Below are positions 39,002 through 61,076 of a stretch of 64,000 nt of DNA, piece after piece. Position numbers and translations under genes: made by a program. The notes under the pieces were generated by a model. It worked only from the letters and a program-made list of their open reading frames with translations, was not told where the DNA came from and searched no databases. This DNA is from Acidimicrobiaceae bacterium (lineage in GTDB: Bacteria > Actinomycetota > Acidimicrobiia > Acidimicrobiales > RAAP-2): positions 1-64,000 of the forward strand of contig PKYK01000023.1 in the NCBI GenBank assembly GCA_003133665.1, in the 5' to 3' direction. Position 1 is the first letter of the stretch, and each line of letters begins with the position of its first letter.

Positions 39002-39058
39002 ATGAAGCCTCTCTTCATCACGAACTTCACTTGTTGACAACCAATCTCTCTGACGAGC

Positions 39059-41495: not shown

Positions 41496-41939
41496 GTGGC
41501 AACAACGCGCAATCTGCTCAGTCGCTTCCGCCTGATGGCCGTGCCCGGCGCTGCGGGGATCGCCGGCGTGCCCGTGGACCGCGAAGCCGCCCTGCGCGAG
41601 GAGTTGGCGCCGGTCTTCGCAGTGCTGCGCGAAGCCGATCACGACGCGAGCGACACCGTGGCGCGGGCTCGGGCCGAAGGCGAGGCTCGACGCGCCCGGA
41701 CGAATCAGGACGCTCGTCGGATCCTCGATGAGGCGCGCGAAGCAGCGCCCGCGGCGCGCGAAGCAGCCGCGGCGGCCGAGACGGCGTCAGCCGAGTCCGA
41801 CGCTGCCATGCTCCGCGAAGCCGCCCACGAAGAAGCCGGGAGAATCAGGCGCGACGCAACTGGGCGAATCCCGACCGTGGTGGATGAACTCGTCAGACGG
41901 GTGATATCGGCCGGCAGTTCATCGGGAACGCTGCCATGA
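41496..41939 (+). CDS. V/A-type ATPase stalk-like coiled-coil protein (subunit G/H-like)
   Basis: Ala/Glu-rich coiled coil (ARARAEGEARRARTNQDARRILDEAREAAPAAREAA); GGAGG RBS before GTG; first gene of the operon. Confidence 0.65.
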   Translation: MATTRNLLSRFRLMAVPGAAGIAGVPVDREAALREELAPVFAVLREADHDASDTVARARAEGEARRARTNQDARRILDEAREAAPAAREAAAAAETASAESDAAMLREAAHEEAGRIRRDATGRIPTVVDELVRRVISAGSSSGTLP

Positions 41940-42845
41940 GCGCTGGCTGGGTCGCCGCGCAAGTGCGCAGCCGGGGCCTCGTCGCCCATTGCATCGGCGC
42001 CGCCGGGGCGCGCGAAGTCGCCAATGCGGGCTCGCTCGATGGGGCACTCGCCTTCCTCGCTACCACCGGTTACGGCGATCGACTCCACCCGGGATTGGAT
42101 CTTGCCGCCAGTGAGCGAGCGGTCTTCGCTACCGTGCTCTGGTACCTTCGCGTCCTGGCCGGCTGGAGCCCCCCACTCGGGGCTTCGCGCCTGCACGTCC
42201 TCGCGGGCACTTTCGAACTGGCGAACCTTCGCGCCGAACTCGCCCGTCTCGAGGGCCGCGACGCACCAGAGCCCTACGAGTTGGGCTCGCTTGGAAGCGT
42301 GGCGCGCCACCGTGCACCGTCGAGCTCGGGCGAGTTGCGCGAGGCGCTGAAGCGCACCCCCTGGGGCGATCCCGGTACCGCCGATGCCGGCGAACAGAGC
42401 GTCGCGCTGCAGTTCTCGCTCATTCGTCGGATCGTCGAGAACGTGCCCGAGGCCCGCGGGTGGGCCGAGACCTACGCCGCGCTCGCCATGGCCAGGGTCG
42501 TCATGGCGAATGTGTCAATCGAACCAGATTCGGTGGCGGGCACGAACGTCCGGGCGGTCCTCGGTTCGCGAGCGCTCGCTGCCAAATCTCTCGCCGACCT
42601 CGCGCGGGCGTTGCCCTCTGACGTCAGCCCGGCCCTCGACGGCGTCACGGGACCGCTGGACCTTTGGGCCGGCGAGGCTCGCTGGTGGGGTCGGCTGTGG
42701 TGCGAGGCGCTGGAAAAGGTCCGGCGGGGACGTGCCGAACCGGCAACGGTCGTCGCCGCCGTCGCCGCCCAGGGGGCGGACGCGTGGCGCGCGCGCGTGG
42801 CCCTGGAAGTCGCAGCCCGCGGCGGCCAGGGGATCGAGGTGCTCG

Positions 42846-42859
<14 letters not shown>
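41936..42859 (+). CDS. V/A-type ATPase subunit C-like
   Basis: Position and AtpC/V0d-like helical pattern (LWYLRVLAGWSPPLGASRLHVLAGTFELANLRAELARLEG); 4-bp overlaps. Confidence 0.6.
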
Positions 42860-44899
<2,040 letters not shown>

Positions 44900-44903
<4 letters not shown>

Positions 44904-45454
44904 CGACCGAGCCGACCACGCCGGGCAACGGGCGAACGAAGACGGCAGGAGACGACGATGTGCGTCCGGTGATCGACGCCTTCGCGAGCGAGGCGCAGCG
45001 CCACGCCGAGCGAATCCTCGCCGACGCCGACGCCAACGCCGACACGGTGCTCGAGGAGGCCCGGCGCCAAGCTGAGAGACTCCTCGCGGCGAGTCGGGCC
45101 GATGGTGCGGCGGCGGCCCGACGCCTCGCGGCGGCCATCGTCGCCGACGCCCGGCGTGAAGCCCGAAGAGAGGTGCTGAGTGCGCAGCGTCTGGTCTACG
45201 AGGACGTACGCGCCCAGGCGAAAGCCCACCTCGACGCCCTCGCCCATTCGACCGAGGCCGCGTCGCTCGCCGAGCGCCTCGGCGTGGTCGCGCGTCGGCG
45301 ACTGGGCGACGACGCCGTGGTGGAGCCGCCCGAGGGCGGGGGGCTCGGCGTCGTCGCGCGACGCGGCGCGCGACGGCTCGACCTCAGCGCCAACGCGCTG
45401 CTCGAGCACCAGATCGCGTCCATGGGCAGTGAGATCACGGCGTTGTGGTCATGA
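44900..45454 (+). CDS. V/A-type ATPase subunit E
   Basis: GTG start (GTGA overlap); coiled-coil stalk EAQRHAERILADADANADTVLEEARRQAERLL. Confidence 0.72.
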
Positions 45455-47184
45455 GTCACGCCACCGAAGCCGGTCGCGTGACGCGCGTGAATGGCCCGCT
45501 CGTGGAGGTGGCCGGTCTGCGCGGGGTGGCCGCCCTCGACCTGATCGAAGTCGGTCCCCAGGCGATCTCGGCCGAGGTGGTCTCAATACGAGACGACCTG
45601 CTCACCGCCGAAGCTTTCGAGTACACGGGGGGGCTGTGCGTCGGCGACACGGCCACCACGCTTGGTCGGCCGCTCTCCGCGCGCCTCGGCCCGGGTCTGC
45701 TCGGCGGCGTCTTCGACGGCCTCCTGCGGCCCCTCGACGATGGTCCGACCTGGCTCGATCCCGGGGCGCTCACCGACCGTCGGGCCGAGGCGAGATGGCC
45801 CTTTCGTCCGGCGCCCGTCGACCTCGGGACGCCACTCGCTGCGGGGGCCCTGCTCGGCACGGTGGCGACCGCCGGCGGCTTCATCCACCGAATTCTGGTC
45901 CCGCCTCGCGTGACGGGGCCTCTCGCCTGGCTTGCCGCTGCGGGCCCGATCGGCGAGGACGACGCCGTGGCCATCGTCGGCGACCACACAGTGAACCTGT
46001 ACGAGGAGTGGCCGGTGCGCCGCGCCCGCCCGGTGCTGGCTCGGCTCCGTCCCTACGCGCCCCTCGTCACCGGCCAACGGGTGGTCGACCTCTTGTTCCC
46101 CATCGCTCACGGTGCGACGGCAGCCGTGCCGGGGGGCTTCGGAACCGGTAAGACGATGCTACTCCAGCAGATCGTCAAGTGGGCCGACGTCGAGGTCGTG
46201 GTCTTCGTCGGCTGCGGCGAACGGGGCAACGAGCTCGCCGACGCCATGGCCGACCTCAGCGTCCTGCGTGACCCGACTTCGGGCGCCAGCCTGCGAGAGC
46301 GCACGGTGGTCATCGCCAACACCTCCAACATGCCGGTGATGGCGAGAGTGGCCAGCGTCTACACCGGCATGACGGTCGCCGAGTACTTCCGCGACATGGG
46401 CTATCGCGTGGTGGTCCTCGCCGACTCGACGTCGCGCTGGGCCGAGGCGCTGCGCGAGTTCTCCTCGCGCAGCGGAGAGCTGCCCGCCGAGGAGGGCTAC
46501 CCCGCCAGCCTGTCGTCCTCGCTGGCCGCCTTCTACGAGCGCGCCGCCCGGGTCACCACCCTGGGCGGAGCGGAGGGCTCCGTGACCTTGATCGGCGCGG
46601 TCTCGCCCGCCGGAGGCGACATGACCGAGCCCGTGACCGTCCAGACCGTGCGCTACGTGCGCTGCCTGTGGTCACTCGACCGCGACCTCGCGTACGCCCG
46701 CCACTACCCGGCGGTGAGCTGGCGCCACTCCTTCAGTTTCGATGGCGCCACCATCGCCAACTGGCACGCAACCGAAGGTCGGCTCGGCTGGGCGGAGGCC
46801 CGTGCCCGGGCGCTCTCGCTCCTGGCCGAAACCGACCGACTCTCGTCGATCGTCGAGCTCGTTGGACTGGGCGCGCTGCCCGCGCATGAGCGAATCGTGC
46901 TGTTGACGGGGCGGCTGCTGCGCGAGGGCGTCCTCCAGCAGAGCGCGATGAGTGAGAACGACGCCTACTGCAGTTCGGCCAAGCAGTCCGCGCTGCTCGA
47001 GATGGTGCTGGCCGTGCACGACCGGTGCCTCTCGCTCGTCGAGGGTGGCCTGCCCGCGTCAGCGGTGGAGGAGTTCGATCTCACCGCGGTCACCCGCGCG
47101 CGCGACGAGACCGGACCTGACGACGCCGACGGCGTGACCCGCGCTCGCGACGAGCTGCTGGCGCGAATCGCGGGTGAGCCGTGA
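45451..47184 (+). CDS. V/A-type ATPase catalytic subunit A
   Basis: GRVTRVNGPLVEVAGLRG, PGGFGTGKTMLLQQIVKWADVEVVVFVGCGERGNELADAM. Confidence 0.95.
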   Translation: MSHATEAGRVTRVNGPLVEVAGLRGVAALDLIEVGPQAISAEVVSIRDDLLTAEAFEYTGGLCVGDTATTLGRPLSARLGPGLLGGVFDGLLRPLDDGPTWLDPGALTDRRAEARWPFRPAPVDLGTPLAAGALLGTVATAGGFIHRILVPPRVTGPLAWLAAAGPIGEDDAVAIVGDHTVNLYEEWPVRRARPVLARLRPYAPLVTGQRVVDLLFPIAHGATAAVPGGFGTGKTMLLQQIVKWADVEVVVFVGCGERGNELADAMADLSVLRDPTSGASLRERTVVIANTSNMPVMARVASVYTGMTVAEYFRDMGYRVVVLADSTSRWAEALREFSSRSGELPAEEGYPASLSSSLAAFYERAARVTTLGGAEGSVTLIGAVSPAGGDMTEPVTVQTVRYVRCLWSLDRDLAYARHYPAVSWRHSFSFDGATIANWHATEGRLGWAEARARALSLLAETDRLSSIVELVGLGALPAHERIVLLTGRLLREGVLQQSAMSENDAYCSSAKQSALLEMVLAVHDRCLSLVEGGLPASAVEEFDLTAVTRARDETGPDDADGVTRARDELLARIAGEP

Positions 47185-48647
47185 AGCCCGGACCCTCCGG
47201 TTCCCCGGCGCCACCCGAGCTGCTCGCACCCGTTGAGTTCTCCGGCGCGACCCAGGTCGGTGGCCCCCTGCTCGCGATCCGCGGCGTCGAGGGCGTGGGC
47301 TGGGACGAGATCGCCCTGGTGCGCCTGCCCTCGGGCGAGGTGCGTCACGGGCTCGTCCTTGAAGTCGATGGCGACGTCGCCATTATTGAAGTGCTCGAAG
47401 GCACGAGTGGCATTGACCCCGACCTCGTGGCCGTCGCCTTCGAGGGCCGACCCTTCGACATCCCGGTCGGGGACGGCTGGCTCGGCCGCATTTGGAACGG
47501 GATGGGCGAGCCCCTCGACGGCGGTCCGCCGATGCTCGCTCCGCGGCGCCGCGCGGTCAGCGGATCGCCACTCAACCCGAGTCGGCGCGACGTGCCCAGC
47601 GACCCGGTCTTCACCGGCGTTTCCGTGATCGATGCGCTGGCGACCCTCGTGCGGGGTCAGAAGCTCCCGATATTCTCCTCGGCGGGCCTCCCTCACCTCG
47701 ACCTCGCCGCCCAGATTGCGGCACAAGCCAGCGTCGCCGGCGAGAACTTCAAGGTTGTCGTCGTCGGGATGGGCCTGACGCACGCCGACGCGGCCACGAT
47801 GCGCGAGGTACTCGAGACGCGCGCCGCGTCGGGCGACCTCGTGCTCGTGCTCGACACCGCCGACGACCCAGTCGTCCAGCGCGTCCTCACGCCACGCGTG
47901 GCGCTCACCATCGCCGAGTACCTGGCCTTCGAGCGCGACCAACACGTGCTGGTCGTGATGGCCGACGTGACCAGCTACTGCGAAGCGGTGCGCGAGGTGT
48001 CGGCCGCGCGCGGCGAAGTCCCCGGGCGACGAGCCTACCCCGGTTACCTCTACAGCGACCTCGCCTCCCTCTACGAGCGCTGCGGGCGCATCCGCGGGCG
48101 ATCCGGCTCAGTCACTCTGATGCCAGTGCTCACCATGCCCGGGGGCGACGTCACGCATCCGGTCCCCGACCTGACCGGCTACATCACCGAGGGCCAGATC
48201 GTCCTGTCGGCTGACGTCCACGCCGACGGCATCTACCCACCCGTCGACGTGCTCTCGACGCTCTCACGACTCATGCGAAAGGGGGTGGGTGAAGGGCGCA
48301 CGCGCGCGGACCACATGGCCGTGGCCAATCAGATCATCGCCTCGCTCGCGCGAGCGCGCGTCGCGCGCGAACTGGCCGACCTGATCGGCGCGGAGGCCCT
48401 CACCGAGACCGACCGGCTCCACCTCGACTTCGAGGACGCCTTCTATCGAGACCTGGTCCACCAGTCCGCCGACGAGTCTCGCTCGATGGAGGACACCTTC
48501 GCGCGTGCCTGGGGCGTCATCTCGACCCTGCCCGAGCGCGAACTCACCATGATGCCCGCCGAGAGCATCGCCGCCCACTATCACGGCAGTCTGCGCGAGG
48601 GGAACGAACCTCCTCGCTCCGCGCCCGACAACAACGACCGTGGCTGA
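47181..48647 (+). CDS. V/A-type ATPase subunit B
   Basis: EGTSGIDPDLVAVAFEGRPFDIPVGDGWLGRIWNGMGEPLDGGP; RRAYPGYLYSDLASLYERCGRIRGRSGSVTLMPVLTMPGGDVTHP. Confidence 0.94.
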   Translation: MKPGPSGSPAPPELLAPVEFSGATQVGGPLLAIRGVEGVGWDEIALVRLPSGEVRHGLVLEVDGDVAIIEVLEGTSGIDPDLVAVAFEGRPFDIPVGDGWLGRIWNGMGEPLDGGPPMLAPRRRAVSGSPLNPSRRDVPSDPVFTGVSVIDALATLVRGQKLPIFSSAGLPHLDLAAQIAAQASVAGENFKVVVVGMGLTHADAATMREVLETRAASGDLVLVLDTADDPVVQRVLTPRVALTIAEYLAFERDQHVLVVMADVTSYCEAVREVSAARGEVPGRRAYPGYLYSDLASLYERCGRIRGRSGSVTLMPVLTMPGGDVTHPVPDLTGYITEGQIVLSADVHADGIYPPVDVLSTLSRLMRKGVGEGRTRADHMAVANQIIASLARARVARELADLIGAEALTETDRLHLDFEDAFYRDLVHQSADESRSMEDTFARAWGVISTLPERELTMMPAESIAAHYHGSLREGNEPPRSAPDNNDRG

Positions 48648-49269
48648 GCAGGTCCCCCCCGGTCGGGCCGGACGACCCTGGCTGCTCAAACGCATCGCCA
48701 CCGCCACCCACGGGGCCGACCTGCTCCGCGAGAAGCAGCAGCTGCTTTCTCGCGAGTGGCACCGGCTGGTCCAGTACCGCGAACAGACGGCTCGCGAATG
48801 GGCTATGACGACGACCGAGGTTGAACGATGGGCGACCCGTGCCGACGCCCTCGGCGGGACGATGGCGACCAGGCTCACGGGTGCGGCCGTGGCGGGACGG
48901 GCCGAGGTGTCGATCGCGTGGCGTTCCACCATGGGCGTCCTTCACCCCGACGAAGCCCGTGTCACTACCCCGTCGCTTGACGGCTGGGACGTCGCCGCCG
49001 CCAATGGCGCCGTCCGTCCCGCGGCCGAGGCCGCGAGGAGCGCCCTCGGGGCCGCCGCGCGCCACGCCGTCGCCGAGAGCGCGCTGCGAGCGGTCGAGTC
49101 CGAACTGACCTCGACACGACGGCGTCTGCGCGCCATCGAACGCCACCGACTCCCCCGGCTCGAGGGTGAACTGCACACGCTGGTACTCGCGCTCGACGAA
49201 GTCGAGCGCGAGGAGCGCCTCGTCACGCGCTGGGCCGCCCAGCGCCTCGTGGAAGGGACGCAATCATGA
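48640..49269 (+). CDS. V/A-type ATPase subunit D
   Basis: ATATHGADLLREKQQLLSREW, C-terminal RRLRAIERHRLPRLEGELHTL. Confidence 0.85.
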   Translation: MAEQVPPGRAGRPWLLKRIATATHGADLLREKQQLLSREWHRLVQYREQTAREWAMTTTEVERWATRADALGGTMATRLTGAAVAGRAEVSIAWRSTMGVLHPDEARVTTPSLDGWDVAAANGAVRPAAEAARSALGAAARHAVAESALRAVESELTSTRRRLRAIERHRLPRLEGELHTLVLALDEVEREERLVTRWAAQRLVEGTQS

Positions 49270-49709
49270 CCCGTCGGATGCTCATAGCGGTGGACGACTC
49301 GCGCGAGAGCCTCGGGGCGGCGCGCACCGCGGCGCGTCTCGCGCTCGACCTGCGAGCCGATGTGCGAATCTTCGTCGTGGTCGAGGACGACGCCGTCGGC
49401 GAGGAGGTCGAGCGGGTCGCGGGACCCGACTCGCGCGAGCGGCGGCGCCAAGCGGCGACCAATCTTCTGGAGTACGTGCGCCAGCAGGTCTGCGCCGAAG
49501 GGGTACCTCCACTCCAGGTCGACGTCGAACTGGCCGTCGGCAACCCGTTTCGCCAGATCATTGGGGAAGCGCGGACCTGGCGGGCCGACATGATCGTGAT
49601 GGCCGTTTCTGATCAGCGCGGCGTGCGCTCGAACTACGTAGGCAGCGTGACCCAGCAGGTCATCGAATTCGCCAACTGTCCCGTGCTGGTCGTACCCGCG
49701 TCGTCGTAA
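49266..49709 (+). CDS. Universal stress protein (UspA family)
   Basis: MLIAVDDSRESLGAARTAARLA...; ADMIVMAVSDQRGVRSNYVGSVTQQVIEFANCPVLVVP. Confidence 0.88.
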   Translation: MTRRMLIAVDDSRESLGAARTAARLALDLRADVRIFVVVEDDAVGEEVERVAGPDSRERRRQAATNLLEYVRQQVCAEGVPPLQVDVELAVGNPFRQIIGEARTWRADMIVMAVSDQRGVRSNYVGSVTQQVIEFANCPVLVVPASS

Positions 49710-49906
49710 GGTCGACGGGCTACGCGATGCGAAACGACAGCGCCATCGCGGTCACCAGAAGGGCATCAACGATCTTGACATAACTGGAACAGGGGCCTGC
49801 GCCCGCACCAACCCAAGAACGAACAATCGACATGAACGCCGCAACATCGCTAGCCGCGGCTCTTCCCATCGGCTATGAAGTGACAGCTACTCGAAAGTGA
49901 ACAATC

Positions 49907-50098
49907 CTATGGCGGGAGTCGGCGCAATCGGACGACGAGAGCATTGATGACTGATCGAGCCCGTTGCAGTTCCACAATTTGTTGGTCAATCTCGTCGCTT
50001 CGACGACGAAGTAACTCGAGGACGTGGGCTCGGGGCGAACTACCCCGATCACGATACGCAATTATTCCCCTGATTTCGCCCAGACTGGATCCCGAGAC
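49907..50098 (-). pseudogene. C-terminal fragment of a MerR-family regulator
   Basis: Reading through the arsC TAG in the same frame: VSGSSLGEIRGIIAYRDRGSSPRAHVLELLRRRSDEIDQQIVELQRARSVINALVVRLRRLPP*; no start codon, absent from the ORF track. Confidence 0.65.
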
Positions 50099-50563
50099 CT
50101 AGGAAACCAGAGGAATCGTCACGCCCAGTTCGAACAGCAACTCTCGGACCCGCGCATCAATATCGTTGACGATGCGCCGCACAGTCTCTCGGTCCTGACC
50201 GGCTGGATCGTCGACTACCCAATCGAGGTAGTGCTTGCCTGGAAAGAAGGGGCAGGTCTCGCCGCAGCCCATCGTGACCACCACGTCGGCGACCTCCACC
50301 AGATCCGACGTGAGCACAGTGGGTGCTTCGTCGACGGTACTAAGACCCCGTTCAGCGAGCACCGCGGCGACCTCTCGGTTGATGCCCGACCCCGGCTCGG
50401 ACCCCGCCGAACGAACCTCCACCCGTCCCGCGGCGTAGTGCTCAGTCAGGATCTTGGCGGCGACTGACCGACCGGAGTTGTGGATGCACGCGAACAGCAC
50501 CACCGGGACCTGACCCGAAGACTCGACGTCAAGGGTGACGGACGAATTGCTCGATGTGCTCAT
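50099..50563 (-). CDS. arsC: Arsenate reductase, low-MW phosphatase fold
   Basis: VLFACIHNSGRSVAAKILTEHYA P-loop (CX5R), MGCGETCPFFPGKHYLDW. Confidence 0.88.
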   Translation of the reverse strand: MSTSSNSSVTLDVESSGQVPVVLFACIHNSGRSVAAKILTEHYAAGRVEVRSAGSEPGSGINREVAAVLAERGLSTVDEAPTVLTSDLVEVADVVVTMGCGETCPFFPGKHYLDWVVDDPAGQDRETVRRIVNDIDARVRELLFELGVTIPLVS

Positions 50564-51678
50564 GTGGATGATTCCCCTTCTGTTTGGTAGAAACGCCGAC
50601 GAGCCCAGAGCGACACATAGACCAGAGCGACGAGGGCGGGCACTTCGATCAGGGGTCCCACGACGCCGGCGAGTGCCTGGCCCGACGTGACCCCGAAAGT
50701 GCCGATGGCGACCGCGATTGCGAGTTCGAAGTTATTGCCTGCTGCCGTGAAGGCCAGGGTCGCGGTGCGGGGGTAGGAAAGGTGAAGCGCCCGGCCCAGG
50801 CCGAAGGACACGCTCCACATGATGGCGAAGTAGCACAGCAGGGGCAAGGCGATGCGCGCGACGTCGAACGGATGGCGGGTAATGGCGTTGCCCTGGAGCG
50901 CGAAGAGGATCACGATGGTGAACAACAGACCGTAGAGCGCGAACGGCCCGATGCGCGGAAGGAAACGGCTCTCGTACCAGACCCGCCCCCGGGCTTTCTC
51001 ACCGAGGGTGCGCGTAAGATAACCGGCCGCCAGGGGAATGCCGAGAAAGATGAGCACACTGCGCGCAATCGACCACACTGACACCTGCACCGTCGTCGTC
51101 GAAAGGCCCAGCCACGCCGGAAAGATCTTGAGATAGAAGTAGCCGAGACCGGCAAAGGCCACGATCTGAAAAAGCGAGTTGACGGCCACGAGCACGGCCG
51201 CCGCGGTGGCATCACCACGGGCCAGATCGTTCCAGATAAGAACCATGGCGATGCAGCGGGCCAGTCCGACCAGAATGAGCCCCGTGCGATACGCGGGCAG
51301 ATCCGGTAGCAGCAGCCAAGCCAGCGTGAACATCACCGCCGGGCCGATGACCCAGTTGAGCACCAGCGAGGGCACGATAAGACGCCGGTCACCCGTCACG
51401 CGATTGATCTCGCCGTAGCGAACCTTGGCGAGCACTGGGTACATCATCACGAGCAACCCGAGGGCGATGGGCAAGCTGGTCCCGGCGACCTGGACGTGGT
51501 CCAGCGTCCGATTGAGACTGGGAACGAGTCGCCCCAGCCCGATGCCAGCCAGCATCGCGATCCCGATCCACACGGGTAGGAACCGGTTGAGCACCGACAT
51601 GCGGGCGACAACCGGAGCGTGCCCGTCAACTTCCTGCAATGTCGTCATCTTTGGCTCACTCGTCGTCACATCGACCAT
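50560..51678 (-). CDS. acr3: Arsenite efflux transporter, ACR3 family
   Basis: Start MVDVTTSEPKMTTLQEVDG inside the longer ORF; VLVGLARCIAMVLIWNDLARGDATAAAVLVAVNSLFQ. Confidence 0.9.
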   Translation of the reverse strand: MVDVTTSEPKMTTLQEVDGHAPVVARMSVLNRFLPVWIGIAMLAGIGLGRLVPSLNRTLDHVQVAGTSLPIALGLLVMMYPVLAKVRYGEINRVTGDRRLIVPSLVLNWVIGPAVMFTLAWLLLPDLPAYRTGLILVGLARCIAMVLIWNDLARGDATAAAVLVAVNSLFQIVAFAGLGYFYLKIFPAWLGLSTTTVQVSVWSIARSVLIFLGIPLAAGYLTRTLGEKARGRVWYESRFLPRIGPFALYGLLFTIVILFALQGNAITRHPFDVARIALPLLCYFAIMWSVSFGLGRALHLSYPRTATLAFTAAGNNFELAIAVAIGTFGVTSGQALAGVVGPLIEVPALVALVYVSLWARRRFYQTEGESST

Positions 51679-51881
51679 CCTTAGAAGACGAGGTGAGTGA
51701 AAGGACAACGCCCACTCGGTCCGGGAGATTGGAGTGGCCGTGCCAGAGGTCCGAATGTGCACAAGGACATGCAGAATGCGTGCGAGGCGCTCGTAACACC
51801 AACCATCTCCATTGCTAGATTGACAATGATGAATATAGCAGTCTCTGTCTATTGCATCGACATCTATGAATGGGAGAAGAG

Positions 51882-52241
51882 ATGGTGAAAAGCCGATCGG
51901 CGAAGACCACCATGGGCGTAGGCGTGACGAAGGCCGTCGCATGCTCGACGTCTACTATCGCGGCGCCGCTCAGCACCAATGACGCCGTTAACTTGGCACG
52001 AACGCTCGCGGCTCTCGCCGATCCAGTTCGAATCCGACTCGTGTCACTCGTGGCGGCCCAGGGCGAGGTCTGCTCGTGTGATTTGGAAGTCCCCCTCGCC
52101 AAGAGCCAGCCCACGATCAGCCACCACACGACGATACTGGCTCGAGCGGGAATCCTCGTTGGCGAGAAACGCGGCCGTTGGACCTGGTGGCGCGTCGATA
52201 CGGAATCCCTCGCCGAGTTGCGTCGGGCGCTGGGGGGCTGA
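51882..52241 (+). CDS. ArsR-family regulator 1 (CxC in alpha-3)
   Basis: TLAALADPVRIRLVSLVAAQGEVCSCDLEVPLAKSQPTISHHTTILARAG. Confidence 0.9.
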   Translation: MVKSRSAKTTMGVGVTKAVACSTSTIAAPLSTNDAVNLARTLAALADPVRIRLVSLVAAQGEVCSCDLEVPLAKSQPTISHHTTILARAGILVGEKRGRWTWWRVDTESLAELRRALGG

Positions 52242-52309
52242 GGCCGGCGATATCCCCATTCGGCATCGACGCGAGAATACGGCGAACACTCCGATACGCT
52301 GCAGTTGCG

Positions 52310-52672
52310 ATGAAAAAGTTGCCCGAGACCCCCAGCGCCAAATTCGACGTGTGCTGCGTCGACGACGAGGTAATTTCGCCGAGCGACGCTCTCGAGGCAC
52401 GGGCGCTCGATAATGAGACTCTGGGCGTTATGGCCAAGGCGCTGGGGCATCCAACCCGAATTCGGATTCTGCAACTGTTGGCTGAACGCCATACGTGCGT
52501 GACTGGCGATCTCGTCGCCGAACTGCCACTCGCCCAATCGACCATCTCGGAGCACCTGCGGATACTTCGCGAGGCTGGATTGATCCAGGGGGAGATCGAA
52601 GGACCTCGGACGTCCTACTGCCTGAATCGAGCGGGGCTCAACGCGTTGAAGGTTGCCGTCAACTCACTCTGA
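52310..52672 (+). CDS. ArsR-family regulator 2 (N-terminal vicinal Cys)
   Basis: MKKLPETPSAKFDVCCVDDE...MAKALGHPTRIRILQLLAERHTCVTGDLVAELPLAQSTISEHLRILREAGL. Confidence 0.9.
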   Translation: MKKLPETPSAKFDVCCVDDEVISPSDALEARALDNETLGVMAKALGHPTRIRILQLLAERHTCVTGDLVAELPLAQSTISEHLRILREAGLIQGEIEGPRTSYCLNRAGLNALKVAVNSL

Positions 52673-52770
52673 GTTGAGGCCCGTCAGTTTCTCTCACCGG
52701 ACGTTGCAATCGGGGTCAACGGGTAGTATCATCGTTATTCGACGATTAGCGATGAACTTTGGAGGTTCTG

Positions 52771-53517
52771 ATGTCCACAATTGAAGTCTTTGACCCGCCA
52801 ATGTGCTGTTCGACCGGAGTCTGCGGTCCCAGCGTCGATCCCGCCCTCGCCAAGTTTGCGGCCGATCTCACCCAGTTGACTGAGCAGGGCATCACCGTCA
52901 CGCGCCACAATCTCTCCCAGGAACCCAAGGCGTTCGTCGACGACAATCTCATTCGCGACTTGCTCAACGAGCGCGGCGAGGACGTCTTGCCGGTGATACT
53001 TGTAAATGGCGAGTTGCGATCCTCGGGCCGTTACCCGGCGCGTGACGAGCTCGACGTCTGGGTCCTCACCGGTGAGCGGGTCAGCGAGCTTGACGCGGCC
53101 ACCGCCGAACTCGTGGCCCTCGGTGCGGCCGTTGGTGCGAACTGTGAATCATGTCTCAAGTTCCACTACAACGAGGCGCGCCGGCTCGGTGTGAGCACCG
53201 CGACAATGGTCGCAGCCGTTCGCATCGCCCAGACCGTGAAGGATTCACCGGCCCGCTCGATGCTGGAGTTGACGGCGAAGTTGCTCGCGACCACTCCCGA
53301 GACGCTGCGGTCGCCCTCAACCGCCACCGACGCGACGCCAGCGACTTCGGTCAGCCCCGATTCAGCGAATGGCCACGACGCCGCGCCCTGCTGTGAGCCG
53401 AGCACGTCCAGCGGAGCAGCGACGCAAGCGGCCACCTCGTCATGCTGCGGCGATACCGACGCTGACGCCCAGGTCCTCATCACTGCGAAGGACCAGGGAT
53501 CGAGTTGCTGTGGTTAA
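52771..53517 (+). CDS. ArsD fused to an AhpD-like domain and a Cys-rich C-terminal tail
   Basis: N-term MSTIEVFDPPMCCSTGVCGPSVDP (ArsD); middle AAVGANCESCLKFHYNEARRLGVSTATMVAAV (AhpD CxxC...H); tail PCCEP / SSCCGD / SSCCG. Confidence 0.85.
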   Translation: MSTIEVFDPPMCCSTGVCGPSVDPALAKFAADLTQLTEQGITVTRHNLSQEPKAFVDDNLIRDLLNERGEDVLPVILVNGELRSSGRYPARDELDVWVLTGERVSELDAATAELVALGAAVGANCESCLKFHYNEARRLGVSTATMVAAVRIAQTVKDSPARSMLELTAKLLATTPETLRSPSTATDATPATSVSPDSANGHDAAPCCEPSTSSGAATQAATSSCCGDTDADAQVLITAKDQGSSCCG

Positions 53518-55312
53518 TGGCGAGTCGGTGCTTGACGGCCTCGTAGAGACCGCTCCTCGGTTCTTGTTCTTCACCGGCAAGGGCGGAGTGGGCAAGACGT
53601 CGGTCGCCTCCGCCAGCGCAATCGCGCTGGCGGACCGGGGGCGTCGCGTGCTGCTGGTTTCGACCGACCCGGCGTCGAATCTCGACGAAGTCCTCGGCAT
53701 CGAGCTCGAGTCGAAGCCCCGCCCGGTGCCGGGCGTCGCCGGGCTGGATGCGTCGAACCTCGACCCCCTCGCCGCCGCCGCTGCCTACCGCGAACGAGTC
53801 GTCGCCCCCTACCGCGGTCTCTTGCCGGACTCGGCGATCGCCAGCATCGAAGAGCAGTTGTCCGGCGCCTGCACGGTCGAGGTTGCGGCCTTCGACGAGT
53901 TCACCGCCCTATTGGCGGATCCCTCGGCGACCGCCGGTTACGACCACGTGCTCTTTGACACTGCGCCGACCGGGCACACCTTGCGACTGCTCTCGCTGCC
54001 CGGTGCCTGGTCGGAGTTCATCGACGCGAGCACCCTCGGTGTCTCGTGCATCGGGCCACTGGCGGGCCTCACCAACCAGCACGAGAGTTACCGCGCCGCG
54101 ATTGTGACCCTCGCCGACACGTCGCGTACCGTATTGATTCTGGTGGCTCGCGCCGACCCGATGGCGCTCGATGAAGCGGCCCGGGCCGCTCGCGAACTCG
54201 CGGATCTCGGTATCACCAATCAACGTCTGGTCATCAATGGCGTGTTTCGCACCAGAGAATCCGGTGACCCCCTCGCTCAGGCCATCATGAACCGAAACGC
54301 TGCGGCGTTGGCGTCGATCCCGGCGGCATTGGACCAACTGCCCCGCGACGAAGTGCCGCTGCTGGCCTGGACCCCCGTTGGGCGCGAAGGACTTCGCGCC
54401 CTCGTCTCGGGCGTCGCACCGACCGGGCTACGCGCAACACCCGCGCCGGTGCGTGCGACCACTTCCCTCGCCGAAATTCTCGACGACCTGAGCGCACGCG
54501 GCCGCGGCCTCGTCATGACAATGGGAAAGGGCGGTGTCGGAAAGACGACACTGGCGGTCACGGTCGCTCTGGAACTCGCCCGGCGCGGTCACGCGGTCCA
54601 ACTCTCAACGACGGATCCCGCCGCTCATCTCAGTGCCGTGCTCGGTACCGAATCGGCTGACGCATTCGCCAATCTCGTCGTCCACCGGATCGACCCCGAC
54701 GAGGTGACTGCCGCCTACACCGCCGAAGTGCTGGCGGAGGCCGGTGCCGGCCTCGAGCCCTCGGCTCGCGCCGTGCTCGAAGAGGACCTGCGGTCGCCCT
54801 GCACCGCGGAGATCGCCGTCTTTCGAGCCTTCGCCCACACGGTGGCCGCCGCCACTGATCAGATCGTGGTGCTCGACACCGCTCCGACGGGACACACCCT
54901 GCTTCTGCTCGACGCGGCGCGCGCGTATCACCGTGAGGTCAATCGCCAAGGCGGAGCGGTACCCCCCGAAGTGGAGGCCCTGCTCGACCGGCTCACTGAC
55001 CCCGACTTCACCCACGTGCTGGTCGTGACCCTGCCCGAGGCAACTCCGGTCCATGAAGCCGCGGCGCTGCAGGCCGATCTGCGCCGGGCGGGGATCGACC
55101 CGGCGGCGTGGATCATCAACCAGAGTTTGTTCGCCGCCTCGGTCACGGATCCGGTGCTGGCCGCCCGGGCCGATGCCGAAACGCACGTCATCGAAGAGGT
55201 GCTCAGCCGCTTCGCCACGAGAGTGGTTCTGCTGCCGATGCTCCCCGATTCCCCCACCGGACCCGCGGGAATCGAAGCGCTGGTGTCGGCAACTCTGGGT
55301 GTCGACGCATGA
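53510..55312 (+). CDS. arsA: Arsenite-transporting ATPase (tandem P-loop ArsA)
   Basis: Two P-loops FFTGKGGVGKTSVA and MGKGGVGKTTLAV, plus DTAPTGHTLRLL / DTAPTGHTLLLL. Confidence 0.93.
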   Translation: MVNGESVLDGLVETAPRFLFFTGKGGVGKTSVASASAIALADRGRRVLLVSTDPASNLDEVLGIELESKPRPVPGVAGLDASNLDPLAAAAAYRERVVAPYRGLLPDSAIASIEEQLSGACTVEVAAFDEFTALLADPSATAGYDHVLFDTAPTGHTLRLLSLPGAWSEFIDASTLGVSCIGPLAGLTNQHESYRAAIVTLADTSRTVLILVARADPMALDEAARAARELADLGITNQRLVINGVFRTRESGDPLAQAIMNRNAAALASIPAALDQLPRDEVPLLAWTPVGREGLRALVSGVAPTGLRATPAPVRATTSLAEILDDLSARGRGLVMTMGKGGVGKTTLAVTVALELARRGHAVQLSTTDPAAHLSAVLGTESADAFANLVVHRIDPDEVTAAYTAEVLAEAGAGLEPSARAVLEEDLRSPCTAEIAVFRAFAHTVAAATDQIVVLDTAPTGHTLLLLDAARAYHREVNRQGGAVPPEVEALLDRLTDPDFTHVLVVTLPEATPVHEAAALQADLRRAGIDPAAWIINQSLFAASVTDPVLAARADAETHVIEEVLSRFATRVVLLPMLPDSPTGPAGIEALVSATLGVDA

Positions 55313-55395
55313 GGATCAGTCGATTGAATGGCACCTCCGCCAGAGCAACGCAACCATTTCACCACCAGCCAATCACAGCTTAGGAGAAGAACACC

Positions 55396-55752
55396 ATGGC
55401 TACATCCGTCATCCACTTATTCCACGGCGACGAGGACTCCTTGTCAGCGGGTTCGCACGTCGCCGAGCGAATCCGTCAAGTTGCGGCCGAACAGGGCGTG
55501 ACGCTCGAAGTATTCTGCTTCGGTCCCGCCCAGAAAGCTCTCAGCGCCGCCGGCGACTCGGTCGTGCTGAGAGAGTACAACCAGCAAATTGACGAACTGG
55601 TGGAAGCAGGGATTCCGGTCGGCGCCTGTCTGAACGCCGCCCACGCCGCGGGCACCGAGGAGTCCCTCACCGCCCGGGGCATCACCCTGCAGTTCGCACG
55701 CGACGCCTTCGTCCGCTATGCACTCGACGGTGCCACCGTTCTCACCTTCTGA
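55396..55752 (+). CDS. DsrE-like small protein
   Basis: 118 aa; QVAAEQGVTLEVFCFGPAQKAL...ELVEAGIPVGACLNAAHAAG pattern. Confidence 0.6.
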   Translation: MATSVIHLFHGDEDSLSAGSHVAERIRQVAAEQGVTLEVFCFGPAQKALSAAGDSVVLREYNQQIDELVEAGIPVGACLNAAHAAGTEESLTARGITLQFARDAFVRYALDGATVLTF

Positions 55753-55756
55753 TTCC

Positions 55757-56551
55757 GTGGCACCCAACGAAACCCCGAGGGCCGACATCGGCGCCACGCC
55801 GCCCAATCGGCTGATGTGGTCGATTGCCGAGTGGCTCGACGACGCCCCACTTCCGACTTTCGAGGTTCTCGACACCCGCTCCGCCCAGGGCCGGCTCGAT
55901 ACCCGGGTGAAGACCGTCAAGGTTGCCGATCTCGTATTGGCGCACGGTCACGCGTGTGATGGACTGCTCCGCGGGGTCTGGGCCATGCGCGCACTCGCCG
56001 ACGTCGCCTTCGGCGACACGCCGATCGATCGAAGTGACCTGCTCGTCGTATCGAAGAACTCACCGTGTCTCGGCGACGTCGCCGCGTATCTCACCGGGGG
56101 ACGCGCCCGTTTTGGCACGCACCGCCTCGACGACACCCTCGGCGTCGGATTCCAACTCCAGCAACTGTCGACGGGCCGGGCGTGGGAGGTGCGCGAAGAG
56201 CCAGGATTCTTCCCCGCAACGATCATCGCCTGGGAAGCGGCGTTGTTGCGAGGCGAGCTCAGCGAGTCCGACATGCGCGAACTGCTCGCGGTGCACGAGG
56301 CGGCGCAGTGGGACTGGGTGCGCGACGTGCTGTTGCCGAGTGCGCCGAGCGACCACTACCGGGCCCGAAAACTCGATTACCTCAAGCTTCCAGCACCACT
56401 GCACGAAGCACGACGTACCGATACCGTGAACCGATTGGTGCCCCCGCCCATTGGCCTGCCAAGTCCCGACGACCCCACCCTCGAGAACGAACCGATCAAT
56501 CAATCGACGTTGGAACTCTGGCAGCAACGTTACGATGCCGGACCGAGTTAG
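55757..56551 (+). CDS. FmdE-like (formylmethanofuran dehydrogenase subunit E family) protein
   Basis: GHACDGLLRGVWAMRALADVAFG and DLLVVSKNSPCLGDVAAYLTGGRARFGTHRL; GTG start 55757 chosen over the upstream overlapping start. Confidence 0.6.
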   Translation: MAPNETPRADIGATPPNRLMWSIAEWLDDAPLPTFEVLDTRSAQGRLDTRVKTVKVADLVLAHGHACDGLLRGVWAMRALADVAFGDTPIDRSDLLVVSKNSPCLGDVAAYLTGGRARFGTHRLDDTLGVGFQLQQLSTGRAWEVREEPGFFPATIIAWEAALLRGELSESDMRELLAVHEAAQWDWVRDVLLPSAPSDHYRARKLDYLKLPAPLHEARRTDTVNRLVPPPIGLPSPDDPTLENEPINQSTLELWQQRYDAGPS

Positions 56552-56861
56552 TCGGTTAGGTCCCCGGATCTTGGCCAGATGGAGGCTATTGAACCCTTCT
56601 ACCAACTAGGGAATTGAAGTTCTTAATAGCGTGCCATTCTGGCAGAAGGCGACATCGTCCGATCAACATGACCTTCATGATTCGATCATTGGCCCTTGCC
56701 AGTCAGTTCCTGACAGCGTAACCTTGCCGTATGGATGCAGGTGCGACTTCGCGTCGTCCGCCCTTTGCTTGGTACGCCGCCCAAATGTCGATGCGGTGGG
56801 TGGCTCGCTCCCCAAAGTGCTGTTCCACCCCTGTCGTGCAGGCCCGTCTGCGGTATCGGCA

Positions 56862-57302
56862 GTGAGCACCGGACCACCAAGCAGTTACGCCATTCAGGCA
56901 CGCACTACTGCACCCGGCCGCGCTGAAGTCGTCGCTGGCCAGGAAACGATCGTCTTCGACGCCAGTTGGGGCGCCGAACCAGTCGGTCTGCCGGGGCCGG
57001 CCGAACTGCTTGCAGCCGCGTTCGCCGCGTGTCTGCTCAAGAATCTGGCGCGTGCAGGGCAACTCCTCGAGTTCCGCTACTCCTACGCCGAAGTTGACGT
57101 CACAGCCCGCCGCCAGGACAGTCCTCCGAAATTCGTTGAGGTTGCCTACGAACTGCGGGTCACCACCGAAGAGACTGAACATCGGGTCGATCTCGTGCAC
57201 CTGAACCTTCGCAAGTACGGCACCGTCTTCAACACCCTCGGCGCGGCCTGCGACGTACACGGCCAGGTCGTGGTGGTGCGGCCGGTGCCTCGCCAACCCT
57301 GA
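56862..57302 (+). CDS. OsmC-family protein
   Basis: GPAELLAAAFAACLLKNLARAGQLL, NTLGAACDVHGQVVV; GTG at 56862 is the plausible start. Confidence 0.75.
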   Translation: MSTGPPSSYAIQARTTAPGRAEVVAGQETIVFDASWGAEPVGLPGPAELLAAAFAACLLKNLARAGQLLEFRYSYAEVDVTARRQDSPPKFVEVAYELRVTTEETEHRVDLVHLNLRKYGTVFNTLGAACDVHGQVVVVRPVPRQP

Positions 57303-57682
57303 CTCGATGCCCGGCTCATCGGTGCGGTGAGTACCAGCACGCCCCAGCCCCCTGGACCAGATCGGTCGAGTTCCAGGCTGTGAGCATTCACGCCACTTGC
57401 TGATCGCCCCGTGTGGGTGTCTCGTCTCCTCGATCATGCGCTTGTCTCGTCGGGGAGCCGGCCGGCCGCTCCTGGCGGGCGGACTCCTCTTCGAGGAATG
57501 TGTCACACCGCAATCCAAGCCATACCGACCACCTTGCCACTGATGGACTGCAGACTGATCAAACAGAAACCCTCTGCGTGCCACCTGATGAAGCCCCTGG
57601 CGCTCAATATTGATTTCCATCCGCGACGTAAGTGCCAGATGATCCAAACGTTGCAGCGCTAGGTAGATTCCTGGCGTCTCGT

Positions 57683-57976
57683 CTAACGCTCGTTGCTATC
57701 GCCCTTTGTAGCCTTCCGGCCAGCAACTCTGGCCCTTGGATTCACGCGGATGTACGGCTCGACCCCGTCGAGGAGCTCAAGCACGGACATGCCCAACCCC
57801 CCGGCAAGTCGGTCAAGCACCTCGAGTGATGGCAGCTTCCTCCCCCGTTCGACCTCGGAGATGTAGGCGAGAGAGACATCGGACATCTGGGCCAACGCGC
57901 CCAACTTCAGATGGCGCTCGCTCCGCAAGGAACGAAGTCGCGCGCCTAGGGCCGGGTTGCCGCTCGATGTTGCCAC
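57683..57976 (-). CDS. XRE-family HTH regulator
   Basis: LGARLRSLRSERHLKLGALAQMSDVSLAYISEVERGRKLPSLEVLDRLAGGLGMSVLELL. Confidence 0.92.
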   Translation of the reverse strand: MATSSGNPALGARLRSLRSERHLKLGALAQMSDVSLAYISEVERGRKLPSLEVLDRLAGGLGMSVLELLDGVEPYIRVNPRARVAGRKATKGDSNER

Positions 57977-57988
57977 GCCGCAAAACTA
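57974..57988 (-). promoter_or_regulatory. Candidate leaderless promoter -10 (TAGTTT-N6-GTG), XRE gene
   Basis: AAACTA at 57983-57988 on +, 6 nt from the XRE start codon. Confidence 0.45.
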
Positions 57989-58013
57989 GGACCGTGGTGG
58001 GTTGATTTCGCTC

Positions 58014-58028
58014 ATAGCAGAATGCTAT
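58014..58028. promoter_or_regulatory. Candidate XRE operator (ATAGCA-gaa-TGCTAT)
   Basis: Perfect 6-3-6 inverted repeat in the divergent intergenic region. Confidence 0.45.
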
Positions 58029-58147
58029 TATTATGCTTGAAGCAGAACTACCAGATCAGAGGCGGTGTTCTTCATCGAAATTCTTCGTGCACTTTTCGTA
58101 TCACTCCGGACCGTCCATTGGGCAACTTCACAAACGAAAGGCACCCA

Positions 58148-59185
58148 ATGGACATCACCAACGATAACTTCCTCGAGGATCTCGAGGCCTACGGCACCGC
58201 CCTGCGCGACATGGCAGAAGAGCAGGAGGACATCTCCTGCCTCTTGCCCTTCACCACTCGGAGCGTCGTGATGGCGGCGTACGGACTCAAGAACGCGCCG
58301 ACCCTTGCCGAGGGCTTCGCCATCATCACGAGTTACTGGCACGCAATGGACGAGCTCGCTCCCGCGACCCAGACACGCTTCGCTGAGGTGCTCGCCCAGG
58401 CCACGCGCCGCGCCGAGCGCCTCGGGATAACCCACTGGGGGGTCGAGTTCGACGTCGTCGTCTGCGAGGCCTTCATCAATTCGAGGACCAGCAATGCCGC
58501 GGCTCCGGCGACGAGCACCCTGCACCTTCGCCGGTCGGCCCTGCGAGCGGGTTTCTCGACGCTGCGTCACATTGGCCTCGCCACGGTGGATCCCACCCGC
58601 GGGATTCTCTTGCCTGCACGGTCGCAACTCGCCACTCGATCCGCAACTGACGACGAGGTCGCCCTGCTCGAGATGCACGCTGTCGCATCTCGAACCAGCC
58701 GACAGCCGCTCATTCTTGCCTTGGCGGAGGCGTCGGGGCTGACATCGGAGATCCCGTTCGTCACCTTCGAGCACCTCGATGACCTCGACAACCCCAGCGA
58801 GGTGGAGTTCCTCGGTGGTACGTGGACCAAAGCACGCGTCGCTAAGTTGTCAAACTTTGGGCAACGGGTCCTGCGGGGCCGGATCAAGGTGTTGCGTCGC
58901 GATGGGACCCTCAGGATGGGTGAGTCAATCGTCTACGCCGGCGCGAAGAAGCACGGAGACGTCAGCCCCACTGCGTCAATGTGCCAATCAATCTCCGAGG
59001 TCTTCCGTCGCGCTGGTCTCAACCAGGAGACCGACCTTCGCCCTATTTCGATCACCTTCTGGGCCGGGCGTCAGGCCTTCGAAGCCGCCGAGGACCACAA
59101 GCTCGAGGCAGCGGCGAAGGCCATGGGGCTCAAGAGCCTCGACATGACGGCCCAGAAGATCGACTACACCTGGGACCAGCAATGA
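58148..59185 (+). CDS. Degenerate tyrosine-recombinase-like protein
   Basis: SAM-like region TLHLRRSALRAGFSTLRHIGL; box-I-like LILALAEASGLTSEIPFVTFEHLD; beta-hairpin Lys WTKARVAKLS; box-II-like DLRPISITFWAGRQ...AMGLKSLDMTAQKIDYTW. Confidence 0.5.
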   Translation: MDITNDNFLEDLEAYGTALRDMAEEQEDISCLLPFTTRSVVMAAYGLKNAPTLAEGFAIITSYWHAMDELAPATQTRFAEVLAQATRRAERLGITHWGVEFDVVVCEAFINSRTSNAAAPATSTLHLRRSALRAGFSTLRHIGLATVDPTRGILLPARSQLATRSATDDEVALLEMHAVASRTSRQPLILALAEASGLTSEIPFVTFEHLDDLDNPSEVEFLGGTWTKARVAKLSNFGQRVLRGRIKVLRRDGTLRMGESIVYAGAKKHGDVSPTASMCQSISEVFRRAGLNQETDLRPISITFWAGRQAFEAAEDHKLEAAAKAMGLKSLDMTAQKIDYTWDQQ

Positions 59186-60822
59186 GTCGCTACAGTGCCC
59201 GTCCGCTACTCGGCGCCCGGACGGCGACCCTCAGCGACCTCGAGATGGCGATCATCTTGCTCTACCAGCCCCAGTTCCACGCCATCGCCGACTCTCTCTC
59301 CTACGCGAAAGACGACTCGACCGTCATCGGTCACCGCAACAGCGACTACCCGAAAGCGATCGTGCTCCTCATCGGCGCCCTGTCTCGGGTCTGTCGCAGT
59401 CTGCCAAAGGCCGAGGCAATGCTGCGGACACCCGACACCTGGGCGGCGATTCGCAAGCATTGGCGCTTGGCCAAGCAACTTGGCGTGATCGGAGACAACG
59501 AACCCGACGAACTACCCTCTAGCCCGATCAGCACTCCGCAGTGGCGCTACATGGTGGACCGATTCAAAGCTCAGCCAGGGAAGTTCGACGAGTTCTGCCA
59601 GGTCTTCACAGACGCATCCGTTGGCCTGGCGCTCGAGCTTGGCTACTTCGAAGATGGCTCAACGTCCAAGCCGGCGCTCAGTTCCTCGCTGTTTGCCGAC
59701 GGGACCGAAATCCGCTCGCAGTACCGCTCCTACATTGACGAAGTTGTCGATCCCGTCACTGATGAAGTCCGCCTGGCCGCCGTCGACCCTGGCCGAGGCG
59801 GATGTGTGCGCGCGTGGCTCGTCGAGATTGACGGCCAATGGACAGGCGTCAATCCGGAGACCGGTGTAGTGCTGAAGAAGATTCCCATTGACGTTGAAGC
59901 ACTCGCAAGTGGCAAGTACGGTCCGACCCAAGCCGCTTACAATGTGGTGCCCCTCAGCGTCCGCAGCGGCGTGCCCAACAGTCGCGTCACTCTGGGAATT
60001 GACATGGACTTCAAGGACAGCCAAGAAGCGAAGACGATTCTGCGACTCACGAAGCGAGTGGTGGGCGAGGTCCTCGAAGGAAAGGTCCAGTGCATGATCA
60101 CCGACCTGATCCTGCGAGGTGTTCACCAGACACGGCTCTTTCAAGACCACGGCATCATCACCGTGAACAAGGTCGCCGCGGCGCCTCCGTCAAAGGACGA
60201 CGGCTTTCATGAAGTGCTTAACCAGAACGGCAAACGCGTCAAGACACTCCCGCTCGATCTGGTCAGCCACAAGCGAGCGAACGGAGTGAAGTGCAAACAC
60301 ATGCTGGAGACGATAGACGGGGTCCTTGTCGAGGTCGACTACGACCAAGACGCGGCCAACCTCGTAGTCGTCAGCACTCCAGTGCGCAGGCAGGTGAAGC
60401 GCGCCAAGGAGACGACGACCGGAGGGCACCAGTATCGGTTCAATATTCGTTACACGATCGAGTGTCGACATGGCGCCTTCGACGTGTGGATCTGCCCGCA
60501 TAGGGAGATTGGTGGTGACGATGGTCGGAAAGTCGCCGAGAACTACCGCGTCTTCCCCGAAGGCGATCCCGCTTACAAGGAACTCTACGGTGCTGGTCGC
60601 AATACCTCCGAAGGTGGAAACGCGCACCACAAGAACACGTATCCTCACAAGCGTGCCCAAGGCGTCGGTCGAATTCCCATCCTTCTCGACGTGCACCTGT
60701 ACTTCATCTACGACAACGCCAAGTCCTGGTACTTCCAGAAGGGTTGGCGCATCGTCGATCCCTTACTCCACGGCACCGGCGTTGAAGAGGAGGACGTGCT
60801 CGCCCTAGAACTCGCGAGCTGA
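59182..60822 (+). CDS. DDE/RNase H-like transposase-like protein
   Basis: ATGA overlap with the upstream gene; SSSLFADGTEIRSQYRSYIDE, TLGIDMDFKDSQEAKTILRL, MITDLILRGVHQTRLFQDHGIITVNKV, GRNTSEGGNAHHKNTYPHKRAQGVGR (R-x3-E-like). Confidence 0.55.
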   Translation: MSRYSARPLLGARTATLSDLEMAIILLYQPQFHAIADSLSYAKDDSTVIGHRNSDYPKAIVLLIGALSRVCRSLPKAEAMLRTPDTWAAIRKHWRLAKQLGVIGDNEPDELPSSPISTPQWRYMVDRFKAQPGKFDEFCQVFTDASVGLALELGYFEDGSTSKPALSSSLFADGTEIRSQYRSYIDEVVDPVTDEVRLAAVDPGRGGCVRAWLVEIDGQWTGVNPETGVVLKKIPIDVEALASGKYGPTQAAYNVVPLSVRSGVPNSRVTLGIDMDFKDSQEAKTILRLTKRVVGEVLEGKVQCMITDLILRGVHQTRLFQDHGIITVNKVAAAPPSKDDGFHEVLNQNGKRVKTLPLDLVSHKRANGVKCKHMLETIDGVLVEVDYDQDAANLVVVSTPVRRQVKRAKETTTGGHQYRFNIRYTIECRHGAFDVWICPHREIGGDDGRKVAENYRVFPEGDPAYKELYGAGRNTSEGGNAHHKNTYPHKRAQGVGRIPILLDVHLYFIYDNAKSWYFQKGWRIVDPLLHGTGVEEEDVLALELAS

Positions 60823-60932
60823 GTCCGTGCATCGTCAACACCAGCGGAGAACTTGTCGAAGTTTTAATGCGCCTGCTTCTTCACCGAACCGGTGGAGAGG
60901 CAGGCGCTTCGATCGATTGTGGGGTAATACCG

Positions 60933-61008
60933 GGCAATCCGATGAACTACTCTTGTGGGTCCGGGGATTGAGCATTTCTCAATGCAAATCTCCATCCACC
61001 GGGCCGCT
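60933..61008. repeat. 76-bp direct repeat, right copy (B), ends with the first 8 nt of tRNA-Lys
   Basis: 75/76 identical to 37597-37672. Confidence 0.93.
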
Positions 61009-61076
61009 AGCTCATCGGGAAGAGCAGGGGACTTTTAATCCCAAGGTGCCGGGATCGAGACCCGGGCGGCCCACCA
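61001..61076 (+). tRNA. tRNA-Lys(TTT)
   Basis: GGGCCGC acceptor / GCGGCCC-A-CCA, D-arm GCTC/GAGC, anticodon loop CTTTTAA, T-arm CCGGG/CCCGG. Confidence 0.9.

Follow-up and report, generated by a model that had tools for sequence, protein, structure and literature searches.

The DNA examined here is a 64,000-nucleotide stretch of an Acidimicrobiaceae genome (GenBank assembly GCA_003133665.1, contig PKYK01000023.1, positions 1 to 64,000), which we call the window. Toward its right end lie three genes that probably form the transposition module of a mobile element. A gene for an XRE-family regulator (HTH_31/HTH_3; Pfam HTH_31, 2.9e-13) occupies positions 57683..57976 of the minus strand and is divergent from a plus-strand gene (58148..59185) for a 345-residue protein with a tyrosine recombinase fold, hereafter the Int-like protein. 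The latter gene overlaps, through an ATGA at 59182-59185, a plus-strand gene (59182..60822) for a 546-residue DDE transposase of the Tn5/IS4 type. A first-pass annotation of this DNA had recognized the three genes at these positions and their overlap, which we confirm, and had proposed that a DDE enzyme, aided by a recombinase-like DNA-binding protein, may constitute a poorly described transposition or integration system. It also reported a direct repeat near the module. This repeat is real, and spans 79 bp at 97% identity (37597-37675 versus 60936-61014), with its right copy beginning ~114 bp past the DDE stop codon. It consists of the 5′ flank of a tRNA-Lys(TTT) gene plus the first ~11 nt of that gene. 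The tRNA gene, absent from the first-pass annotation, was located by ARAGORN at 61001..61076 on the plus strand, 178 bp past the DDE stop and in the same direction.

Taken alone, neither the Int-like nor the DDE protein of the window gave anything significant in searches of Pfam, NCBIfam, PHROGs and PADLOC profiles or of Protein Data Bank sequences. A profile of the Int-like family, by contrast in method, matched XerA (5.6e-10) and XerD (8.7e-10), and the Pfam Phage_integrase and SAM-like domains were detected in 16 of 40 Int-like homologues. The AlphaFold model of the protein (predicted local distance difference test score, pLDDT, 89.5) was matched by Foldseek to XerA, an integron integrase, lambda Int, Tn1549 Int and Cre, all with a Foldseek probability of 1.00. 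The core-binding and catalytic domains of the tyrosine recombinase superfamily are thus both represented in its fold. To locate catalytic positions, we transferred them from XerD through the profile alignment, using residue numbers that we take to be those of the XerD active site; the Tyr position falls slightly past the displayed end of the alignment. In all 40 homologues, the positions aligned with the catalytic His, Lys and Tyr hold other residues, while Arg I is kept in 11 and Arg II in 12, such that the R-K-H-R-H-Y set of an active tyrosine recombinase is missing from the family. The first-pass annotation had pointed to a box I and a C-terminal Tyr in the window protein. However, the Arg position of that box is L198, and the tyrosine in question, Y340, does not align with the catalytic one and is a Y in 11/40 homologues, with W, H, L, F and others elsewhere. 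Most likely, the Int-like protein is a DNA-binding partner that does not perform catalysis.

The DDE protein presents the opposite pattern of conservation. Its AlphaFold model (pLDDT 87.4) found Tn5 transposase (1mm8) as its best and only significant Foldseek match (9.5e-6, probability 1.00). The DDE/RNase H-like blocks noticed earlier are borne out by this fold and by an invariant triad: D173 (FADGTE), D308 (MITDLIL) and E477 (NTSEGG), along with R473, are identical in 44/44 homologues, and a beta-rich insertion separates the second D from the E as in Tn5/IS4 enzymes. Within the Y-(2)-R-(3)-E-(6)-K signature of that group, R473 and E477 are universal and Y469 is present in 38/44, whereas at position 484 the K of the window protein is found in 14 of the 44 and D takes its place in 28, and the window spacing is Y-(3)-R. 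Pfam DDE_Tnp_1 matched 15/44 homologues at E below 1, weakly (best 3.2e-4), and did not match the window protein. Template modeling scores for the significant structure matches of both proteins are moderate (0.29-0.58 by query length), and our homology claim therefore rests jointly on profile, motif and fold evidence. Because the catalytic positions are lost from the Int-like family while those of the DDE family are invariant, the former is most likely the DNA-binding partner and the latter the enzyme.

The gene pair is not peculiar to this genome. A genome scan with single sequences returned no matches; an alignment-based scan yielded 48 named loci, nearly all from Actinomycetota, and module relatives are present in 21/398 genomes of the phylum. 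Most of these loci are contigs of metagenome-assembled genomes whose titles may be wrong, as for L072 (“Bifidobacterium breve”) and L117 (“Acidobacteriota”), given that the module is otherwise actinobacterial. Distant relatives in Streptomyces and in Mycobacterium plasmids retain the same order, with a minus-strand helix-turn-helix (HTH) gene followed by int-like and dde-like genes. Pairwise distances among Int-like proteins correlate with those among their DDE neighbors (r = 0.83, 36 pairs; permutation maximum 0.18), which indicates that the two genes travel together.

The position of the module relative to tRNA genes is equally recurrent. Counting duplicates from one genome once, we found 28 distinct loci in which the DDE gene is followed closely by the 5′ end of a same-strand tRNA gene; at 21 loci the two are separated by 150-200 bp. 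We estimate the chance of such adjacency at ~0.5% per locus (~46 tRNA genes in 3 Mb). Five tRNA identities are represented, namely Arg(CCT, CCG, TCT), Lys(TTT), Phe(GAA), Thr(CGT, TGT) and Ala(TGC), and at L073 and L074 further tRNA starts that the tRNA finder did not call are visible by eye.

Between the DDE stop and the tRNA, the window shows a hairpin, a TAnnnT box, a leader and two 12-bp repeats ending at tRNA nt 1. The hairpin is a perfect 8-bp inverted repeat (GCGCCTGC/GCAGGCGC, 60869..60907, plus strand) that is probably a terminator, and a similar hairpin occupies the matching position in genome G406. The box, TACTCT (60948..60953, plus strand), lies 53 nt upstream of the tRNA and resembles a -10 element. 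The box is a putative replacement promoter brought along by the element; each of 21/21 right ends has a TAnnnT sequence within -80..-40, compared with a mean of 4.1 and a maximum of 9 after shuffling. The two 12-bp direct repeats (GCATTTCTCAAT GCAAATCTCCAT, 60972..60995, plus strand) are candidate binding sites, and the same periodicity recurs in the right ends of relatives, for example as GTTTTCTACCAC CTTTTCTACCGG in L083. As a separate observation, the flanks directly upstream of tRNA-Arg(CCT) at the Streptomyces loci L182, L175 and L173 have this two-repeat look, and the family may be common there.

The same right end, read inward on the minus strand, is a terminal inverted repeat (GGTGGATGGAGATTTGC, 60984..61000) that pairs with the left end GGCGGATGGAGAAATGG. 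Immediately beyond it are nucleotides 1-8 of the tRNA, GGGCCGCT (61001..61008, plus strand). A second copy of these eight nucleotides stands at 37665..37672 on the plus strand, directly followed by GGCGGATGGAGAAATGG; the left terminal inverted repeat is GGCGGATGGAGAAATGGCT (37673..37691, plus strand). Together these ends delimit a 23.3-kb island, element C (37673..61000, plus strand), with the three-gene module at its right end. Such junctions, in which a copy of tRNA nt 1-8 precedes inverted right-end sequence 1.8-30 kb upstream, were found for 14 elements in nine genomes. Compared over 14 nt, the inverted repeats of these elements average 0.66 identity when the frame is an 8-bp duplication from tRNA nt 1, but 0.20-0.43 when it is placed off the symmetry axis. 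In ten elements the copies of the duplication agree at 8/8 positions, and in four at 7/8. In a junction search that made no use of similarity to the right-end flank, the best junction exceeded all shuffles at seven loci (the window, L085, G420C91, G418, G423, G136 and G422). Beyond the outermost left junction of G418, the flank resembles a native tRNA promoter, with TACGAT followed by GGGTGGCCCC and the copied 8 bp.

These distant left ends also bear on whether the module might be a small insertion sequence (IS)-like element that landed by chance beside a tRNA gene, with the 23-kb cargo assembled separately. The module alone measures ~3.3 kb, and a compact unit of ~5.4 kb exists in mycobacterial plasmids, which would suit such an element. 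However, the left repeat and duplication of the 14 elements are found 1.8-30 kb away from the right end, and no left end was seen near the XRE gene in the window, making this explanation improbable.

A different possibility is that the island is of the conventional tyrosine-integrase kind, with an active Int-like protein, the 8 bp serving as the crossover (overlap) region between inverted half-sites, and the DDE protein acting as an accessory or passenger. The joint of an excised circle would read CTCCATCCACC-GGGCCGCT-GGCGGATGGAG, in which 11-bp inverted arms surround 8 bp. Core sites of tyrosine recombinases have this layout, and the target is a tRNA gene. However, the catalytic His, Lys and Tyr are found in 0/40 homologues, and the two arginines in the minorities given above, whereas the DDE triad is complete in 44/44. 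In addition, the 129-kb contig of the window yielded no canonical Phage_integrase. Islands of the classical type are recognized by a duplicated tRNA 3′ end and an adjoining active integrase; here the duplicated part is the tRNA 5′ end. We consider a conventional integrase island unlikely.

Returning to the DDE transposon reading, insertion always at the same spot is expected to produce stacked islands, and the window holds such a stack. An older element, B (32114..37664, plus strand; 5.6 kb), lacks int and dde genes and has its duplication at 32106-32113, its left terminal inverted repeat GGCGTATGGACAAATGG and its right end at 37634-37664. Directly before that duplication is the right end of a still older element, A (32075..32105, plus strand), which matches the right-end sequence at 24/31 positions; the left end of element A was not found within the window. 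With right ends at 32105, 37664 and 61000 and left ends at 32114 and 37673, there are at least two stacked elements plus the right end of a third. Head-to-tail junctions are likewise seen in L077, where a right end, GCCCCCGT and a left end follow one another, in G418 and in G092, the last with several right ends accompanied by transposase remnants. Stacking also explains the long direct repeat, given as 76 bp by the first-pass annotation. We rejected it as a classical attL/attR pair, since the duplication marked out by the inverted ends is 8 bp long (tRNA nt 1-8). Its two copies are the right ends of two neighboring elements, the part outside the 8 bp being right-end sequence of an older neighbor.

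Two further features were noted around tRNA-Lys. In a congener, a right end stands at tRNA-Lys (L059, G406 C49, position 5837) with no DDE gene detected, and the left end matching it is on a separate contig (L060, G406 C42, near 19868); this element is perhaps decayed or nonautonomous. On the 3′ side of tRNA-Lys, to the right of the window on the same contig (C8; L062-L064), there are nine tandem copies of the last ~40 nt of the tRNA, at 73714, 76064, 81927, 93596, 95202, 97037, 99452, 103675 and 105624. They are spaced 1.6-12 kb apart, and other genomes of the genus have series like this one.

Several points weigh against a site-specific DDE transposon with an 8-bp duplication. Duplication lengths with a common center cannot be told apart by the symmetry of the inverted repeats alone; because frames on the same axis (for example, 10 or 12 bp) score nearly alike, the 8-bp length also draws on the point at which the direct copy ends. 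The set of left junctions is biased toward stacked cases, since most were initially located through their similarity to right ends. The inverted repeats of G092 and G417C23 align only with a shift of 1-2 nt, and G424 lies outside the 8-bp scheme. No transposition event, circle or same-species empty site was seen; the empty-site search for G418 gave no informative relative, and the Streptomyces tRNA-Arg(CCT) flanks are too variable for an empty site to be recognized. Finally, ~20 further loci of the wider family have no tRNA beside the module (part of Streptomyces, Blastococcus, Nocardioides, Amycolatopsis and the mycobacterial plasmids), and thus some branches may use other targets.

Despite these points, the central proposal of the first-pass annotation survived every test run. 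AlphaFold and Foldseek assign the two proteins to tyrosine recombinases and Tn5-like transposases rather than to unrelated folds, the pair recurs across Actinomycetota in distant genomes, and no match to a described IS or transposon (Tn) family was found. Judging from the sequences, through the two folds, the conservation of catalytic residues, co-inheritance, tRNA 5′ adjacency at element ends, inverted repeats, the 8-bp duplication and stacking, we think it likely that the trio of genes serves as transposition module for a family of site-specific DDE transposons that use an Int-like partner, insert at tRNA 5′ ends and accumulate in stacks. The reaction mechanism, the part played by each protein and present-day mobility are inferences. 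The Tn5/IS4-like protein would cut and join DNA, and the Int-like partner would probably recognize the 12-bp end repeats, the tRNA 5′ region, or both. Insertion would place the right end of the element against tRNA nt 1 and duplicate the first 8 nt of the tRNA. Because an outward promoter-like sequence and leader would travel with the element, the intact tRNA gene should still be transcribable. Each new element would then enter between the previous element and the tRNA.

It is less clear which protein chooses the target. We lean slightly toward a catalytically dead tyrosine recombinase that guides one Tn5/IS4-like DDE transposase to a conserved feature, bp 1-8 of tRNA genes, with a new promoter supplied, and this would be the first family of its kind outside Tn7. 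A less probable variant keeps the same transposon family, but makes the Int-like protein an end-binding architectural factor or repressor only, leaving target choice to the DDE protein. In keeping with that variant, the 12-bp periodic repeats sit inside the element’s own right end, and DDE insertion sequences can be target-specific with no recombinase-like partner described, as in the IS1202 family at dif sites (PMC10132070). Co-inheritance of the two genes argues against it, as does the precedent of TnsF, a catalysis-free recombinase fold that chooses a target (PMC10293859), although neither is decisive.

TnsF of the Tn7-like transposon Tn6022, described together with Tsy (Faure et al. 2023, PMC10293859), is the nearest concept to a target-choosing Int-like protein. 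It is an inactivated tyrosine-recombinase protein that selects comM (PMC10293859), and both systems place such a domain beside transposition machinery. However, Tn6022 employs TnsA, TnsB, TnsC and TniQ, whereas the family in the window has a single Tn5/IS4-like DDE protein and targets the tRNA 5′ end. TnsF also carries zinc fingers and has two core-binding domains, and its catalytic domain is truncated. In contrast, the Int-like protein of the window has an almost complete Xer-like fold, and no zinc-finger family was found in it. Tn7-like elements and CRISPR-associated transposons (CASTs) also rely on DDE transposition that is site-specific for conserved genes, among them tRNA genes in the case of CASTs, but no TnsA, TnsB, TnsC or TniQ was present in the right-end module, which has XRE, Int-like and DDE genes only, or among ten scanned cargo proteins.

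The remaining comparisons are with simpler elements and with islands. IS4 and Tn5 transposases have the same DDE core with a beta-rich insertion ahead of the Glu, and their Y-(2/3)-R-(3)-E-(6)-K/D signature is matched to the extent given above, but the family in the window adds a partner gene, a fixed target, an 8-bp duplication and 2-30 kb of cargo. Islands that use tyrosine integrases at tRNA genes as a rule rebuild the tRNA 3′ end by means of an active integrase. They too integrate at a tRNA, leave the gene intact and stack, whereas the family in the window rebuilds the tRNA 5′ end and has a degenerate recombinase. The 1.5-kb elements of the IS1202 family (ISAjo2) at dif/pdif sites likewise insert in one orientation at a fixed distance from a tyrosine-recombinase binding site, but their target is another one and no recombinase-like partner is described for them in the abstract (PMC10132070). 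In a literature search whose coverage excluded most subscription papers and all bioRxiv preprints, neither a DDE element at tRNA 5′ ends nor this gene pair was found.

The regulator varies among relatives. The first-pass annotation regarded the divergent XRE gene as a phage-like control element of the system; it is present in the window and at the same place in the two nearest relatives, L117 and L112, but it is not general. An XRE protein of another type is found in the plasmids, L094 and L111, and many Acidimicrobiia loci have in this position a protein of ~70 residues resembling AlpA/HTH_17 (weak Pfam scores). We infer a regulatory or accessory role for this small, divergently encoded HTH protein. 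A second, more distant pair, DDE2/INT2, is located near the first in opposite or the same direction at L093, L100, L103, L106 and L107, and DDE2 alone was seen at L097; the hosts are Blastococcus, Nocardioides, Actinotalea and metagenome-assembled genomes. In the Mycobacterium plasmids L003 (3167-8540), L004 and L005, three more conserved hypothetical genes lie beyond the regulator, and the int-like gene of L005 is broken. The right end in these plasmids (GGTTTTnGTCAGGTATTCnAAGACGTCCC) has the two-repeat look, yet no tRNA follows, and an inverted-repeat search there gave no end repeats above the GC-rich background.

The cargo of element C, as assigned by Pfam, includes genes for a ferredoxin/FAD oxidoreductase, ChrA, a V/A-ATPase operon and OsmC, together with arsenic genes for ArsC-like LMWPc, Acr3-like SBF, ArsR, ArsD and ArsA. 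The V/A-type ATPase operon (41466-49269), situated between the chromate and arsenic genes, seems unusual for an island.

This family of actinobacterial mobile islands is apparently undescribed. It represents an unannotated class whose ends can be defined, whose target is precise and whose mobile cargo includes arsenic and chromate resistance and a V/A-ATPase. The 5′ end of tRNA genes would be an integration niche beside the classical 3′ end, and, if true, a mirror of the one that tyrosine integrases exploit. The two proteins are a compact candidate for studying how a recombinase fold is reused in guiding a DDE transposase, and possibly offer a simpler tool for site-specific insertion than Tn7-type systems.

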